IMG/VR virus record: IMGVR_UViG_3300031227_000416
Coordinates: 1 to 24,334 of that record
Reading direction: 5' to 3' (one strand)
DNA: 24,334 nucleotides
Source of the DNA: a virus
How positions within the stretch are numbered: position 1 is the first letter of the stretch; the number at the start of each line of letters is the position of its first letter. The notes under the pieces are model-generated. The model was not told where the DNA came from and did no database searches. It was given only the letters and a program-made list of their open reading frames with translations. Positions 4,794 to 24,143 of the stretch are shown here, in pieces. Position numbers and translations under genes: made by a program.

Positions 4794-5545
4794 TAGTCTG
4801 GCTCCGCTATCGGACTGGGCTTGATATGGCCGCCGCCGTCACCGCGCGGGCTGATGTGGGCGGTGCGGTTGATATACGGCTCCATTAGCTGACGCGCTCC
4901 CGGCCCCAGCACTTGCCGACGCTGCCCACTGTAACTCTCCGAGTGCCCGTCTATGCCGATACTGGTAACGCCCTGCTCCTGGAGGGCTTCCCGGTCCAGC
5001 AACGTCCCTGAATCGCGCTTCTGTAGCAGCCACAAAGCCTGTTCGCACTGAGCAGCCTCAACAGCCTTGGGCGTCCCCCAACAGTCATAGGTGATTTGAT
5101 ACCCAGTGGCGTCATCCATACTGCCAGTGGACAGGACAGTAACGGTCCCGGCGGTATGCTGCATCGTGTAATCGGTGTCTTTGGTGTACTCCGTGGCTTC
5201 ATCGGTGGTCTCTACTGTTTCGCTACCGGAGACAATCTCTGCCCTGTCCAGGCTGACAGCCACGCCATAGTCGGAGGTGAAGGCCTCGTCAATCACTTGC
5301 CGGTATTCTTCACCGGCCCGGGGAAAGTGAAGAGCCTGCGGCGTCGAGCGATCATACTTTTCGCCATACAACCGCAGGCTCTCTATTTGGACACATGCCT
5401 CGATTAGCGCACGTTGCTTGTCGGCATCGTCATAGCCCTCCCACACTGCTTCGCGCAGAGTATCATTGAAATACTCATCGGCGAGTGCCAGCGTGAGATA
5501 GCTATTGGCGTTACCGTCTTTTGGCGTGGCCACAATCGTAGGCAT
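4793..5545 (-). CDS. Head-tail connector with DnaT-like/gp6-like N-terminus
   Basis: 250 aa; ATG at 5545 with AGGAGA 6-7 nt upstream. The N-terminus NANSYLTLALADEYFNDT followed by KQRALIEACVQIESLRLYGEKYD and ALHFPRAGE matches the phage family often labelled DnaT-like, which acts as a head-tail connector or adaptor. The C-terminal half contains a strand-rich insertion (about residues 95-165) and then YINRTAHISPRGDGGG. It is longer than the 150-200 aa usual for the family because of the insertion. Position just after the capsid genes fits the adaptor that docks to the portal. Confidence 0.65.
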   Translation of the reverse strand: MPTIVATPKDGNANSYLTLALADEYFNDTLREAVWEGYDDADKQRALIEACVQIESLRLYGEKYDRSTPQALHFPRAGEEYRQVIDEAFTSDYGVAVSLDRAEIVSGSETVETTDEATEYTKDTDYTMQHTAGTVTVLSTGSMDDATGYQITYDCWGTPKAVEAAQCEQALWLLQKRDSGTLLDREALQEQGVTSIGIDGHSESYSGQRRQVLGPGARQLMEPYINRTAHISPRGDGGGHIKPSPIAEPD

Positions 5546-5574
5546 GTCTGTCTCCTATTCAGTTGTTTTCGTGC

Positions 5575-7516: not shown

Positions 7517-7541
7517 AAAAAGCCCCGCGTCGCCGCGAGGC
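7517..7541 (-). terminator. Rho-independent terminator (minus strand)
   Basis: The minus strand reads GCCTCGCG, loop GCGA, CGCGGGGC, then TTTTT: an 8-bp stem (one GU pair) with a GNRA tetraloop followed directly by a U run. It lies just after the glycosyltransferase-like gene and before the scaffold gene, inside the late operon. No promoter is seen between it and the scaffold, so capsid gene expression would need read-through or antitermination. Confidence 0.85.
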
Positions 7542-7576
7542 TCTGGTGTGCTAATGAGTCAGTTGTCAAACTTGGA

Positions 7577-12864: not shown

Positions 12865-12892
12865 AAAAAAGCCCCCGCGATTAAACGGAGGC
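12865..12892 (-). terminator. Rho-independent terminator in the late-operon leader
   Basis: The minus strand reads GCCTCCG, an 8-nt loop TTTAATCG, CGGGGGC, then TTTTTT: a 7-bp GC-rich stem (one GU) and a run of six U. It lies about 100-130 nt downstream of the promoter at 13001-13029, ahead of the packaging genes. Any transcript from that promoter or from upstream genes must pass it. Confidence 0.85.
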
Positions 12893-12961
12893 TGCTGTTC
12901 CGTGGCCAGGGAAAGTACGCTAATCATGTTGGTTCCCCGGCCCACTATTCAGTTATTATCA

Positions 12962-12986
12962 GAAAGGAGAGACTATGCTCCCTTCC
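12962..12986 (-). promoter_or_regulatory. Leader hairpin upstream of the terminator
   Basis: In minus-strand RNA, GGAAGGGAG (12986-12978) can pair with CTCTCCTTTC (12971-12962) around the loop CATAGT, about 9 bp with one bulged C and some GU pairs. Together with the terminator at 12865-12892 it makes a two-hairpin leader. A role in antitermination or attenuation is inference. Confidence 0.45.
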
Positions 12987-13000
12987 AATATTATGCCTAC

Positions 13001-13029
13001 ATCATATCACATCTCGGAATCTTTGTCAA
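13001..13029 (-). promoter_or_regulatory. Strong sigma70-type promoter for the late genes
   Basis: Minus strand: -35 TTGACA at 13029-13024 (perfect consensus), a 17-bp spacer, -10 TATGAT at 13006-13001 (5 of 6). Transcription would begin near 12994. It lies in the gap right after the gene ending at 13040 and ahead of the leader, TerS and TerL. Confidence 0.85.
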
Positions 13030-14613: not shown

Positions 14614-15311
14614 TGGCTCCCCCTCATCGATTTCTTACCTGCTGAGATGCTCTCGCACATTTCCTTCCAGCGGTCATAGACGCGTCGCCACGCATTGCTC
14701 TTCGACAATTCCTCGCGGCTTGCATTGGTCGTGACGCACATCGCCTTCCCGTGAGCATAGCGGTATTCAACCAGCGCATCAAACCGCGTCACTGTCCAGT
14801 CAATGGCATATTGCACCCCAAAGTCATCCAGCAACAGCAAATCGCAGTGACGGGCCTGGGCTATTGCCTCCTGGTCATCACGGTGCAGCCGGTCAAATAA
14901 TTCACCGGCATACCAGTACGCAACCGAATGCCCCGCGCTGGCCGCTGCGTAGGCCACCAGCGCAAGGATGGAGGTCTTGCCCGTACCTACATCGCCTTGA
15001 ATATACAAGCCCCTGCCGGCCACTACCGACTCAGCTATTGAATCCAGATAGCCACGGACAATAGCGCGCACATCATCGCTGCCATCGGCTGGCTTCTCGT
15101 CTGTAACGCGGTCTAACTCGGCGGCCTGATAGCGCCGGCCGATCCCCAGCGGCCCCAGTAGGCGCTGCTTATGAAACGGGCAATCGGGGCCGTCCAGTGG
15201 GCAGGGTTCCCAGTAAGGAGGCATAGCCGGGTCTGGCAGGTATATGCCATCGCATAGCTTGCCCCGGCAAGTTTCAGGCACCTCACATTTTGATTCTACC
15301 GGGTTCGCCAT
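14610..15311 (-). CDS. DnaC-like helicase loader ATPase
   Basis: 233 aa from the ATG at 15311 (AGGAG about 9 nt upstream); the ATG at 15320 is too close to the same SD. AAA+ features: Walker A GDVGTGKT (106-113), Walker B LLLLDDFG (158-165, D162 and D163), and sensor-like TTNAS. The family (DnaC, IstB, lambda P-like loaders) places the replicative helicase at the origin. The first 50 residues hold five cysteines (C9, C15, C20, C37, C44) in a possible metal-binding module, as in the zinc-binding N-termini of some DnaC-like proteins. It overlaps the O-like initiator by 29 nt, matching the O-P pairing of lambda. Confidence 0.88.
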   Translation of the reverse strand: MANPVESKCEVPETCRGKLCDGIYLPDPAMPPYWEPCPLDGPDCPFHKQRLLGPLGIGRRYQAAELDRVTDEKPADGSDDVRAIVRGYLDSIAESVVAGRGLYIQGDVGTGKTSILALVAYAAASAGHSVAYWYAGELFDRLHRDDQEAIAQARHCDLLLLDDFGVQYAIDWTVTRFDALVEYRYAHGKAMCVTTNASREELSKSNAWRRVYDRWKEMCESISAGKKSMRGSQ

Positions 15312-16134
15312 AATCCACATCTCCTCTCGCGGGGATCGTCTTGCCGGACTGCTTGACCTCGGGCTTCCACTTCCATTGCTGGTTCATTGCATTGCGGAAT
15401 TGCTTGTTGAACCACGTCTGGCGTTTAGCTCCTTCTGGTAGCTGTGGCGGTGACCGCCTAATGAACGCAGCGTATTCTTCAACTATCGGAAGGCCATGCT
15501 CCTGGACAAGCTGGATGAGGCCGGAGTATCCTCGGCCACCAGGCTTACCGTCAAAGCCGAACGCCTCCCATAAAGTCTCAATGGCTTTTTGTTGTGGCGT
15601 CAGTTCCTTCTCTTTCTTCGGGGCCGCGTCGGAATCGGCGCGTGCCTTACCTTTCTTTAAAGTGTCTTTAGCCTTTTGTCTTTCTATGGTCAAGGACGTA
15701 CTTGACGTGGGTTGTAAAGGACGTACTTGACTACCTACTGAAGTATGTTCTTCACGTAAAGGACGTTCTTGACGTAAAGGACGTACTTGATATGTCCATT
15801 TAGCTTTAGTCTGGTATTCCATCCAGTCAATATAGTCCTTCTGGATACGGTACTTTGCACTCTCGCCAGGCGATCCTTCGTGGAACTCTATGAGGTTGAA
15901 TTGGGCAGCCTGCTTACGGAGTTGGTAGACTCGTTGGCGAGAGACTTGCAGCACATCCTGGAATGTCTGAACCGCTATCTGTCGCCAGGTCTCATTGTAC
16001 CCCCAGGTATAGCGGGCCACGAGAAGGACAAAGCCCTTTAGGGTGCCCGGTGCCGGGTACTGGACGAACGCCTCCAGCCACTCGTTAGCGATCCTGGTAT
16101 AGCCGTTCTCAAGCTGTGGGCTATGCTCTGACAC
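15283..16134 (-). CDS. Replication initiator, lambda O-like
   Basis: 283 aa from a GTG at 16134 (GGAGG 6 nt upstream); a GTG at 16140 abuts the SD. Residues about 10-85 (NGYTRIANEWLEAFVQY ... LLVARYTWGYNETWRQIAV ... VSRQRVYQLRKQAAQFNL) match the winged-helix replication protein O N-terminal domain, which binds origin iterons. A low-complexity linker (residues about 118-185) is encoded by the iterons themselves. The C-terminal part (KAIETLWEAFGFDGKPGG ... EYAAFIRRSPPQLPEGAKR) likely contacts the helicase loader or helicase. The gene sits just upstream of the loader gene, as O precedes P in lambda. Confidence 0.88.
   Translation of the reverse strand: MSEHSPQLENGYTRIANEWLEAFVQYPAPGTLKGFVLLVARYTWGYNETWRQIAVQTFQDVLQVSRQRVYQLRKQAAQFNLIEFHEGSPGESAKYRIQKDYIDWMEYQTKAKWTYQVRPLRQERPLREEHTSVGSQVRPLQPTSSTSLTIERQKAKDTLKKGKARADSDAAPKKEKELTPQQKAIETLWEAFGFDGKPGGRGYSGLIQLVQEHGLPIVEEYAAFIRRSPPQLPEGAKRQTWFNKQFRNAMNQQWKWKPEVKQSGKTIPARGDVDYGEPGRIKM
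15690..15791 (-). repeat. Five 17-bp dyad iterons inside the O-like gene: probable replication origin
   Basis: Copies on the plus strand start at 15690, 15715, 15739, 15757 and 15775, with spacings 25, 24, 18 and 18. Consensus TaAAGGACGTACTTGAc; the first copy is a dyad with arms TCAAG and CTTGA, and the third is the most diverged (TGAAGTATGTTCTTCAC). They encode the repetitive QVRPL/QERPL segments of the O-like protein. An AT-rich, strand-biased stretch follows at about 15645-15690. The layout is that of lambda ori. Confidence 0.85.
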
Positions 16135-16183
16135 GTACACCCTCCAGTTGGTCTATTAATCGCTGCGCGGTGATCTCGCCCAT
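16121..16183 (-). CDS. Possible 20-codon ORF linking endonuclease and initiator genes
   Basis: Minus strand ATG at 16183 overlaps the endonuclease stop as TAATG and has GAGGGG 7 nt upstream. It encodes MGEITAQRLIDQLEGVRVRA and stops at 16123-16121, 14 nt inside the initiator gene. It contains the GGAGG used by the initiator. It may be a coupling leader peptide or the leftover end of a gene displaced by the endonuclease. No family can be assigned at this size. Confidence 0.35.
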   Translation of the reverse strand: MGEITAQRLIDQLEGVRVRA

Positions 16184-16891: not shown

Positions 16892-16980
16892 CCTATCACA
16901 ACAACAAGCCGCCCCACCCGGAGGGTAATCCACCACAGAATGCAGAGGTCTCCTGGAGGACGGCTTGTTTTTAAGATAGG
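16892..16980 (-). promoter_or_regulatory. Long hairpin covering the endonuclease ribosome binding site
   Basis: Arms 16892-16911 and 16961-16980 are inverted repeats: 18 of 20 positions pair in minus-strand RNA, including the perfect 9-bp AACAAGCCG/CGGCTTGTT and CCTATC/GATAGG. The loop is 49 nt. The GATAGGA that serves as the SD of the endonuclease ATG at 16881 lies in the 3' arm, so the folded RNA would block translation. SD sequestration is known for phage homing endonucleases such as I-TevI; applying it here is inference. Confidence 0.65.
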
Positions 16981-17015
16981 CAAATTGCATCTGCTCATAG
17001 TGAATTACCACTTAT

Positions 17016-17044
17016 AATATAACTGATTACTGGTCACTTGTCAA
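17016..17044 (-). promoter_or_regulatory. Strong sigma70-type promoter for the endonuclease and replication genes
   Basis: Minus strand: -35 TTGACA at 17044-17039 (perfect), 17-bp spacer, -10 TATATT at 17021-17016 (5 of 6). Start near 17009. The -35 overlaps the end of the ERCC4-like gene. The transcript begins with the hairpin leader at 16892-16980. Confidence 0.8.
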
Positions 17045-17880: not shown

Positions 17881-17897
17881 TCTCCGTTTCCTTTCTG

Positions 17898-18008
17898 ACC
17901 GGCGCGGCCCGAGGGACGTGTCCCTTAAGCAACTGGGGAAGCGCGAACACTTCGGGTTTTCAAGGCTCGTCAGCCGTTGCCCAGTTTCCCGCCCCAGGCC
18001 ACGCCGGT
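17898..18008 (-). ncRNA. Structured intergenic RNA element of unknown class
   Basis: In minus-strand RNA the ends 18008-17992 and 17914-17898 pair over 17 bp, three of them GU. Inside, 17986-17980 pairs with 17937-17931 (AACTGGG/CCCAGTT, 7 bp). That stem encloses hairpins at 17975-17964 (GGCT, loop GACG, AGCC) and 17953-17938 (GAAGTG, loop TTCG, CGCTTC, one GU). A further hairpin at 17925-17912 (AGGGA, loop CACG, TCCCT) competes with the inner end of the long stem. The GU pairs become CA mismatches on the plus strand, so the fold belongs to the minus-strand RNA. It fills the gap between two genes. It could be a processed small RNA, a cis-regulator or a ribozyme; none is proven. Confidence 0.6.
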
Positions 18009-18015
18009 TGTCAAG

Positions 18016-18243
18016 CTACTCGTCGCTGTCAGTATCAGCTATTGCATCTGGGTCTGCCGCATCATAGCGGTCGCGCATAATGTCTACGCCCTTCGCTATT
18101 ACACCGGTGGCTTCGGTTGCCTGGACCTTCATAGCCGCAGCGCACAAAAGCGCAATATCCAGATTGTCCGCTACAAGCCTGGTCTCCACGATAACCCTGT
18201 TATTGACACTGACCAAAAGGACTATCTCGTGTTTCTCTTGCAT
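18016..18243 (-). CDS. Hypothetical protein
   Basis: 75 aa; ATG at 18243 with AAAGGAG 7 nt upstream. It begins MQEKHEIVLLVSVNNRVIVE and ends with an acidic tail (DPDAIADTDSDE). The alpha/beta pattern is compact, without membrane segment or motif. It lies just upstream of the structured RNA element. Function unknown. Confidence 0.65.
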   Translation of the reverse strand: MQEKHEIVLLVSVNNRVIVETRLVADNLDIALLCAAAMKVQATEATGVIAKGVDIMRDRYDAADPDAIADTDSDE

Positions 18244-18518: not shown

Positions 18519-18527
18519 CGGCTCCTC

Positions 18528-18584
18528 TCAGAATATGAATATCGGTCTCACCCACGACTGGTTGCGCCCGTTCTTCAGCGTCCG
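18528..18584 (-). pseudogene. Fossil C-terminal fragment of a second 3D-domain gene
   Basis: The minus strand at 18584-18528 reads RTLKNGRNQSWVRPIFIF and stop. The end of the intact 3D-domain gene (18921-18865) reads RTLKEKHNQSWVRPIFIF and stop. The nucleotide identity is patchy in the middle (about half) but near perfect at both ends, so the fragment is a diverged paralogue, not a recent copy. It overlaps the last 10 bases of the upstream 91-aa gene in another frame. Confidence 0.7.
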
Positions 18585-18850
18585 CTGTTGAAGACCTCTC
18601 CCCACGTCAGCCCAACATTCCGCAGTGCCTGCTCTATCGCTGCGGCGAAGGCGTGCTGTACTCGTAGCCATCTTGTGCTTTCCGACTCTATGGACTCCTG
18701 CCAGTAATCAATTATCTTCTGGGCTTCCTCTGCGCTTACCACTTCCGCGCAGTCCTTCCCTTCTGGATTGGGGCCGCCCCAACTTACCAGCCACATTGTG
18801 CTACCATCTGCACGGGCATCCTGTATCTCAACCATTATCGGCTTGTTCAT
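18575..18850 (-). CDS. Hypothetical protein
   Basis: 91 aa; ATG at 18850 with AAGGAGGT at good spacing. Begins MNKPIMVEIQDARADGSTMW; later VVSAEEAQKIIDYWQESIES and a helical C-terminus AAAIEQALRNVGLTWGEVF. No family recognised. It is flanked on both sides by versions of the 3D-domain gene end (18865-18921 and 18528-18584), so it may have arrived or been rearranged by recombination in that sequence. Confidence 0.7.
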   Translation of the reverse strand: MNKPIMVEIQDARADGSTMWLVSWGGPNPEGKDCAEVVSAEEAQKIIDYWQESIESESTRWLRVQHAFAAAIEQALRNVGLTWGEVFNSGR

Positions 18851-18864
18851 AGCTCTACCTCCTT

Positions 18865-19443
18865 TCAGAATATGAATATCGGTCTGACCCAGCTTTGATT
18901 ATGCTTTTCCTTCAGCGTCCGCATCGCGGCTGGCGAGTAGTACAAATCTATCCAAGTCTGTGCAGGCGGGCGTTTGCTGCCGCACTTCTCTGGGTTCTGC
19001 GCTCGCCAGATATTCCGCCTGCTTCCCGTGTCCATAACCTGCCGAAGCTGGTAGCCTTCGGGCAAATCCACCAGCACCCAAGTTGCCCAGGGCTGGTCAA
19101 TCATCGCGGCGACACGGTGACTGACTCGCCGACCCGAAGCGGTGGTGAAGTTGCAGCCCGGGCAGTCCTCATTATAGACAGTTATCCAAGCCAGCTTCTC
19201 TATCGGCGTCACGCGCAGCAGCTTCTCGTAGCCCTGGCGCTGCCAGAGTTCCAAATCCCAGGCCTCAAGCACAACAGCCTTATAAGCTACCCGCTGCACC
19301 GGATTGCTCGGCAACTCGGCAGGATAGGCATTGCTTACGAGAAGCCCTAGGCAAAAGCCGGACAGCAGCCAGGGAGCTATGCCCCAAATGATAAACTCCC
19401 AGACTGGCAAATCAATTCTAAGCCGTCGTCGTAGCACTATCAT
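18865..19443 (-). CDS. Membrane-anchored 3D-domain protein (muralytic type)
   Basis: 192 aa from the ATG at 19443 (GGGAG close upstream); a GTG at 19437 has better spacing. Residues about 13-40 form a single hydrophobic segment (WEFIIWGIAPWLLSGFCLGL) after a basic RRRLRID, so it is a signal anchor. The rest matches the 3D (Asp-Asp-Asp) double-psi beta-barrel: WITVYN, AAMID with D116, VMDTGS with D138, and TWIDLYY with D166. All three hallmark aspartates are kept. Related domains are lytic transglycosylases of peptidoglycan. Its place among early genes is unusual for a lysin; a role in host envelope change or early lysis control is possible. Confidence 0.75.
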   Translation of the reverse strand: MIVLRRRLRIDLPVWEFIIWGIAPWLLSGFCLGLLVSNAYPAELPSNPVQRVAYKAVVLEAWDLELWQRQGYEKLLRVTPIEKLAWITVYNEDCPGCNFTTASGRRVSHRVAAMIDQPWATWVLVDLPEGYQLRQVMDTGSRRNIWRAQNPEKCGSKRPPAQTWIDLYYSPAAMRTLKEKHNQSWVRPIFIF

Positions 19444-23919: not shown

Positions 23920-24143
23920 TAGGGCACCTCCACTTCATCGGTTGTTAGAATGCCCAGGAGGTAGGCCATTGCGCCGGCCTTGGTATGCTGCCACTTTTGC
24001 TGCTTCGTGAGCTTCGGATTATCCAGCGAAGAATCAGCCCCACAACCCTGGGCGCAGACCGGTGAAGTGCGCGGAGTATCGCTACTCTTCCCAAGATTGT
24101 GAGGCTTTAGCTCGTGGACTTTGGCTTCTGTTGTAGGGTTCAT
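23919..24143 (-). CDS. Hypothetical protein
   Basis: 74 aa from the ATG at 24143 (a GTG lies just before it; AAAGG about 11 nt upstream). N-terminal half is polar and likely flexible with CAQGC; the C-terminal half is helical (KLTKQQKWQHTKAGAMAYLL). No family recognised. Confidence 0.55.
   Translation of the reverse strand: MNPTTEAKVHELKPHNLGKSSDTPRTSPVCAQGCGADSSLDNPKLTKQQKWQHTKAGAMAYLLGILTTDEVEVP

Follow-up and report, generated by a model that had tools for sequence, protein, structure and literature searches.

Structured spacers in phage and bacterial messages

In Aeromonas phage 25, a very stable hairpin lies just 5' of the ribosome-binding site of seg43 without covering it, and in phage 44RR an intercistronic untranslated sequence (IC-UTS) splits gene 43 (PMC2988022). 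Duplexes within messages are also the substrates of RNase III, which has targets in the messages of lambda, T7 and T3; the E. coli enzyme is reported to need a duplex of about 22 nt (PMC5371410), and the B. subtilis sites comprise duplexes of 10-36 bp whose arms stand up to 505 nt apart (PMC11780869). The put RNAs of phage HK022 are shorter, of about 70 nt, and consist of two adjacent stem-loops located downstream of early promoters (PMC9378689).

The spacer described here is a 111-nt folded element lying between two small genes of a phage genome, and on anatomical grounds its nearest parallels appear to be the phage 25 hairpin, the 44RR IC-UTS and the RNase III sites. With the first it shares a stable non-coding intercistronic structure that leaves the ribosome-binding site free below the base of the stem, and with the second its place as an untranslated spacer between two cistrons. 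However, phages 25 and 44RR are T4-type Aeromonas phages with a split polymerase and show no sequence relation to the present locus, where the flanking genes encode unknown proteins and the element is branched. As in the RNase III sites of lambda, T7, T3 and B. subtilis (PMC11780869), a long intramolecular duplex lies within the message; it differs from them in being nearly all GC and, in its contiguous form, shorter than the roughly 22 nt given for E. coli. The element also resembles HK022 put in being a structured early phage RNA with neither protein-coding content nor a U-tract, but it is 111 nt long and sits mid-operon with no promoter nearby, and in place of two adjacent stem-loops behind an early promoter it has one long closing stem with nested hairpins.

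The virus record and its genes

The window, that is, the whole stretch of DNA that was analysed, is a linear IMG/VR record of 24,334 bases taken in full, which is probably a fragment rather than a complete genome. Nearly all of its genes lie on the minus strand, including those for the head, the terminase, a RepO-like replication protein and an HNH homing endonuclease, with small genes and genes for SSB, an ERF annealing protein and an SbcC-like ATPase upstream. Non-coding sequence amounts to 842 of the 24,334 bases (3.5%). The closest relatives of the terminase reach 35-38% identity and lack the spacer element, the portal protein is 26-27% identical to those of Paenibacillus and Terrisporobacter phages, and ERF is about 30-40% identical to proteins of various phages. 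The phage is thus far an orphan with remote relatives only, and its host is likely a member of the Bacillota.

The folded spacer sits mid-operon among the genes of the replication and recombination module (ERF, SSB, RepO), and every annotated gene in its vicinity is likewise on the minus strand. No relatives were found for either of the two flanking genes, which have a reading frame in common. Behind the downstream one stands a gene for an HhH-nuclease, whose protein gave a single distant match, to a bacterial, non-phage ERCC4-like protein. The features of the locus are as follows.

18016..18243, minus strand: upstream gene encoding 75 aa, assigned to no family; its coding score of 0.216 resembles that of true genes
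17898..18008, minus strand: the complete folded RNA, 111 nt and non-coding; minimum free energy (MFE) -59.0 kcal/mol, z -3.56; Rfam negative
17995..18008, minus strand: 5' arm of P1, 14 nt, pairing with 17898-17911; the contiguous 17-bp version reaches 17992
17931..17986, minus strand: P2, a 7-bp stem (AACUGGG 17986-17980 with CCCAGUU 17937-17931) that would carry P3 and P4
17961..17979, minus strand: P3 hairpin, loop GACG, with a CAA/UUG extension and one bulged C
17938..17953, minus strand: P4 hairpin, GAAGUG-UUCG-CGCUUC
17912..17925, minus strand: P5 hairpin, AGGGA-CACG-UCCCU
17898..17911, minus strand: 3' arm of P1; the contiguous 17-bp version reaches 17914
17889..17893, minus strand: Shine-Dalgarno sequence AAGGA of the 65-aa gene, from sequence, 8 nt before the AUG and 4 nt after the base of P1
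17683..17880, minus strand: downstream gene, 65 aa, no family; coding score 0.177

Anatomy of the spacer element

The spacer is closed, between the upstream stop codon and the next Shine-Dalgarno sequence, by a GC-rich 14-bp helix that can lengthen to 17 contiguous pairs, or to 19 if a bulge is allowed. In its 17-bp form this helix, P1, joins 18008-17992 to 17914-17898 through 13 GC, 3 GU and 1 AU pairs. A length of 17 bp is what the original prediction had, and the coordinates, sequence and minus strand given there for the inverted-repeat RNA were also borne out. The first 12-13 pairs have a probability near 1, except for the terminal A-U (0.72), and in the MFE structure the closing stem comprises 19-21 pairs with a 2-nt bulge. 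The two tetraloop hairpins already described inside it are also well founded, with pair probabilities of about 0.9 for P4 and for the four GC-rich pairs of P3. The 7-bp stem said to carry them competes with a GGGCAAC:GUUGCUU pairing and attains a probability of only about 0.5. A third hairpin, with the loop CACG, is possible in itself; however, P5 and the 17-bp stem both use 17914-17912 and are thus mutually exclusive, and P5 has a probability of about 0.1 because the inward extension of P1 beyond 14 bp competes with it. The bases on the CACG side mostly lengthen the closing stem in the MFE structure. In these models the closing stem and two hairpins stand firm, the pairing between them is variable, and the multi-branched core is predicted to be one among several nearly isoenergetic inner folds.

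The upstream UAG (18018-18016) lies 7 nt before the start of P1. The element had been thought to fill the whole intergenic gap; it takes up 111 of the 135 nt, with 7 nt remaining before it and 17 nt after it, the latter including the Shine-Dalgarno sequence. A stable fold therefore stands between stop codon and ribosome-binding site, with the site outside the stem. Codon scores in all six frames of the gap resemble those of out-of-frame sequence, in agreement with the view that it codes for nothing evident. The frame common to the 75-aa and 65-aa genes does stay open across the gap, but a run of 45 open codons has a 26% chance and the codon usage there is not coding-like, so that readthrough of the UAG from one gene into the other was rejected.

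No promoter is listed at the element by the promoter scan, and the sole -35-like hexamer, TTGACA at 18014-18009, lacks a correctly spaced -10. The P1 stem is followed by CAGAAAGGAAAC, without the immediate U-tract of an intrinsic terminator, and the terminator scan lists none at the element; ordinary terminators with a GC stem and a U-tract occur elsewhere in the phage, for example at 7517-7543 and 12865-12892.

Folding statistics and strand

The minus strand of the element folds with a z of -3.56 and the plus strand, at -50.3 kcal/mol, with a z of -2.14. With 3000 shuffles the minus-strand z is -3.58, and 4 of the 3000 shuffled sequences fold equally well. A comparison across the window (RNALfold-style z-scores) found 94 local structures with a lower z, mostly within genes, and because these are more extreme, folding energy alone was dropped as evidence. 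The closing helix is a different matter. In 1000 dinucleotide shuffles the sequence of the 135-nt gap never reaches 17 contiguous pairs (maximum 15), and P1 has the most GC pairs among the long helices found in the window; in shuffles of the whole window, one strand being considered, only 2 of 30 contain any helix that reaches 14 bp and includes 11 or more GC pairs. By these counts P1 exceeds what chance would give in the gap, whereas the stability of the segment as a whole is unexceptional in this genome. The case for the helix is strengthened by its position, since it falls in a spacer although non-coding bases are few in this genome.

Four GU pairs were located in the minus-strand RNA (U8-G104, U13-G99, G15-U97 and U60-G67 in RNA numbering), all of which become CA mismatches in plus-strand RNA, as had been pointed out. 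That all four favour one strand has a p of 0.125 by chance. A covariance model of the minus-strand sequence gives that strand 137.8 bits and the plus strand 18.1, a difference that is partly there by construction. The further claim, of a fold maintained for the sake of a minus-strand RNA, is unsupported, since the GU bias lacks significance and the collections searched yielded no homologue; it can stand as a suggestion at most.

Search for known families and homologues

The fold had been said to fit no known class, and covariance searches agree. Rfam 15 gave no match at the gathering threshold in the window and none at E <= 5 in the 341 bases around the element; with 131 bases the sole match was a fragment of Chloroflexi-1 (12.2 of 80 bits, E = 3.8). 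Words like those of hammerhead and HDV ribozyme cores are present (CUGACGA, CUGGGCAAC/UAAGGG-like), but the required topology is absent and the Rfam ribozyme models gave no match. CUGACGA, which resembles part of the hammerhead core, is enclosed here in the P3 hairpin, and the remaining pieces of that core are missing.

No homologue of the element was found among phages by blastn with queries of 901 and 141 nt, nor in IMG/VR scans with the 65-aa, 75-aa and 230-aa neighbour proteins, nor in GTDB contigs and IMG/VR with sequence patterns of the core and of the P5 side; plasmids gave only fragments of 20-36 nt at E >= 1. The record itself holds no second copy. Some pattern matches (L005, L008-L024) gave no score with the covariance model and look like chance, and the 37 IMG/VR loci found with a terminal-repeat pattern have unrelated interiors and were judged to be chance or coding sequence. 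The single-sequence covariance model gave no hit in two sets of Bacillota genomes that partly overlap, one of 398 and one of 73 from a single class (about 470); such a model detects fairly close relatives only, and it was run without a positive-control genome.

A group of IMG/VR contigs met in these scans (L033, L034, L039, L045-L047, L051, L053, L054, L057, L062, L065) has in common an apparently coding 104-bp segment. It is bounded by CCGGCGYGGCC / GGCCRCGCCGG inverted repeats and is unrelated to the spacer element.

Possible function of the spacer

What might such a structure do? Our preferred reading, held tentatively and at somewhat less than an even chance, is that the spacer is a cis-acting intercistronic structure in the mRNA of a minus-strand, multi-gene phage message. 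The element would then probably be a processing or stability site, with the helix, once transcribed, acting as the point of processing or stabilization, and some weak coupling of translation may accompany it. It is possible that host RNase III-type enzymes cut the helix, which would place the upstream and downstream genes on separate messages. Alternatively, the uncut helix may serve as a barrier to exonucleases and protect the upstream message. Cleavage at P1 by RNase III-type enzymes is in itself rather unlikely. The 14-17 contiguous pairs fall within the 10-36 bp range of the B. subtilis sites, but they are slightly fewer than the roughly 22 nt reported for the E. coli enzyme, to which the MFE closing stem comes closer. 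In either case the inner hairpins would probably be stable filler. By folding 111 nt away, P1 would leave about 11 unpaired nt between the stop codon and the ribosome-binding site after it, so that re-initiation on the downstream gene would still be possible. Small RNA, processing signal and ribozyme had all been proposed for the element, and among these the processing signal fits the anatomy, since the element lies mid-operon with a long GC-rich basal duplex, without promoter or U-tract and with the Shine-Dalgarno sequence outside the stem; the other two do not. Counting against a cis-acting structure, genes of this phage hold local folds that are as strong or stronger, another 17-bp helix (24036-24106) lies within a gene, and no homologue was found in the collections searched. 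If it is the right reading, the spacer would be a further example of a phage dividing a long message by stable spacer structures into parts under separate control, here in a lineage for which hardly any relatives are known.

The main rival, which we consider rather unlikely, is that a GC-rich inverted repeat happens to lie in the spacer and folds well with nothing selected. The many local structures of lower z in these 24 kb, the GU bias that chance may explain, the nearly isoenergetic inner folds and the lack of conservation evidence are all compatible with such neutrality, but it would have to account for a 17-bp helix with 13 GC pairs that no shuffle of the gap reproduced, positioned precisely at one of the genome's few spacers. 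An unlikely reading is that the spacer switches translation of the 65-aa gene and of the HhH-nuclease gene behind it. In the folded context the bases of AAGGA are unpaired with probabilities of 0.61, 0.36, 0.22, 0.62 and 0.94, and the CUU beside the upstream stop is unpaired at only 0.12-0.14 (about 0.87 paired) and pairs weakly with the AAG of the Shine-Dalgarno sequence; this pairing could give modest translational coupling. A switch might thus consist of the AAG masked by CUU and stacked on P1, with a ribosome terminating at UAG covering both CUU and the foot of P1 and so freeing the site, or of a ligand or protein that shifts the competing inner folds, of which P2 and its alternative are a case. 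Terminating ribosomes can indeed prevent inhibitory structures in coupled gene pairs, but a spacing of 135 nt is far beyond the usual coupling range, in Firmicutes especially (PMC12548453). The Shine-Dalgarno sequence, moreover, is touched by three pairs only, the downstream genes encode unknown proteins, and no Rfam riboswitch matches.

Readings in which the element acts as an RNA in its own right fare less well. That it is a trans-acting small RNA, a self-cleaving ribozyme or another new structured RNA class, released or embedded, appears quite improbable: its compactness, defined ends, stable tetraloop hairpins and lack of an Rfam match would suit such an RNA, but it has neither promoter nor terminator of its own, no Rfam ribozyme model recognizes it, parts of the hammerhead core are missing and no copy was found anywhere searched. 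There is a slight chance that the repeat acts as DNA, either as a short mobile inverted-repeat insertion or as a palindromic protein-binding site. Terminal inverted repeats of 14 bp, nearly perfect and flanked by CA on each side, point in this direction, as do the length, a multiple of 3, and the ordinary short spacer that remains once the 111 nt are taken out. Yet a 2-bp flank repeat arises by chance in 1 of 16 cases, and in place of the several copies and target-site duplications of a miniature inverted-repeat mobile element there are only the CA/CA flanks and a single copy in the record, with none in phages or plasmids; viral contigs with terminal repeats at an equal distance have interiors unrelated to that of the element. 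Faintest is the chance that the spacer represents a new class of phage RNA, compact and branched, which an unsampled lineage has conserved and which serves the early operon as a regulatory switch, a ribozyme or a signal for antitermination, a reading for which the fold itself is the sole support; the element would become a candidate new RNA family if covarying homologues turn up.

Other structured and repeated segments of the record

Several further segments of the window merit mention. On the minus strand, a second 17-bp helix (24036-24106) lies within the coding sequence of a 75-aa ORF, and the most extreme local folding (5320-5548, z about -6) is found inside a 250-aa gene. The spacer before the NUMOD3-HNH homing endonuclease (16894-17044, minus strand) holds a promoter, TTGACA-17-TATATT at 17044-17016 (11/12 match), and a long imperfect hairpin with a z of about -3, which recalls the hairpin control of phage homing endonucleases. 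Ahead of the terminase operon (12865-13029, minus strand), a strong promoter, TTGACA-17-TATGAT at 13029-13001, is followed by a structured leader and by a terminator-like GC hairpin with a U-tract at 12892-12865, a possible attenuator.

Two repeats were also observed. A 64-nt direct repeat, 80% identical between its copies (18522-18585 and 18859-18922), lies directly 5' of two consecutive small genes; it also encodes NQSWVRPIFIF, a C-terminal peptide common to two overlapping ORFs, and is a candidate repeated leader. The RepO-like gene (15283-16140) contains, at 15689-15791 on the plus strand, four direct repeats of 18 bp, GTMAAGGACGTACTTGAC, that resemble the iterons of a lambda-type origin.
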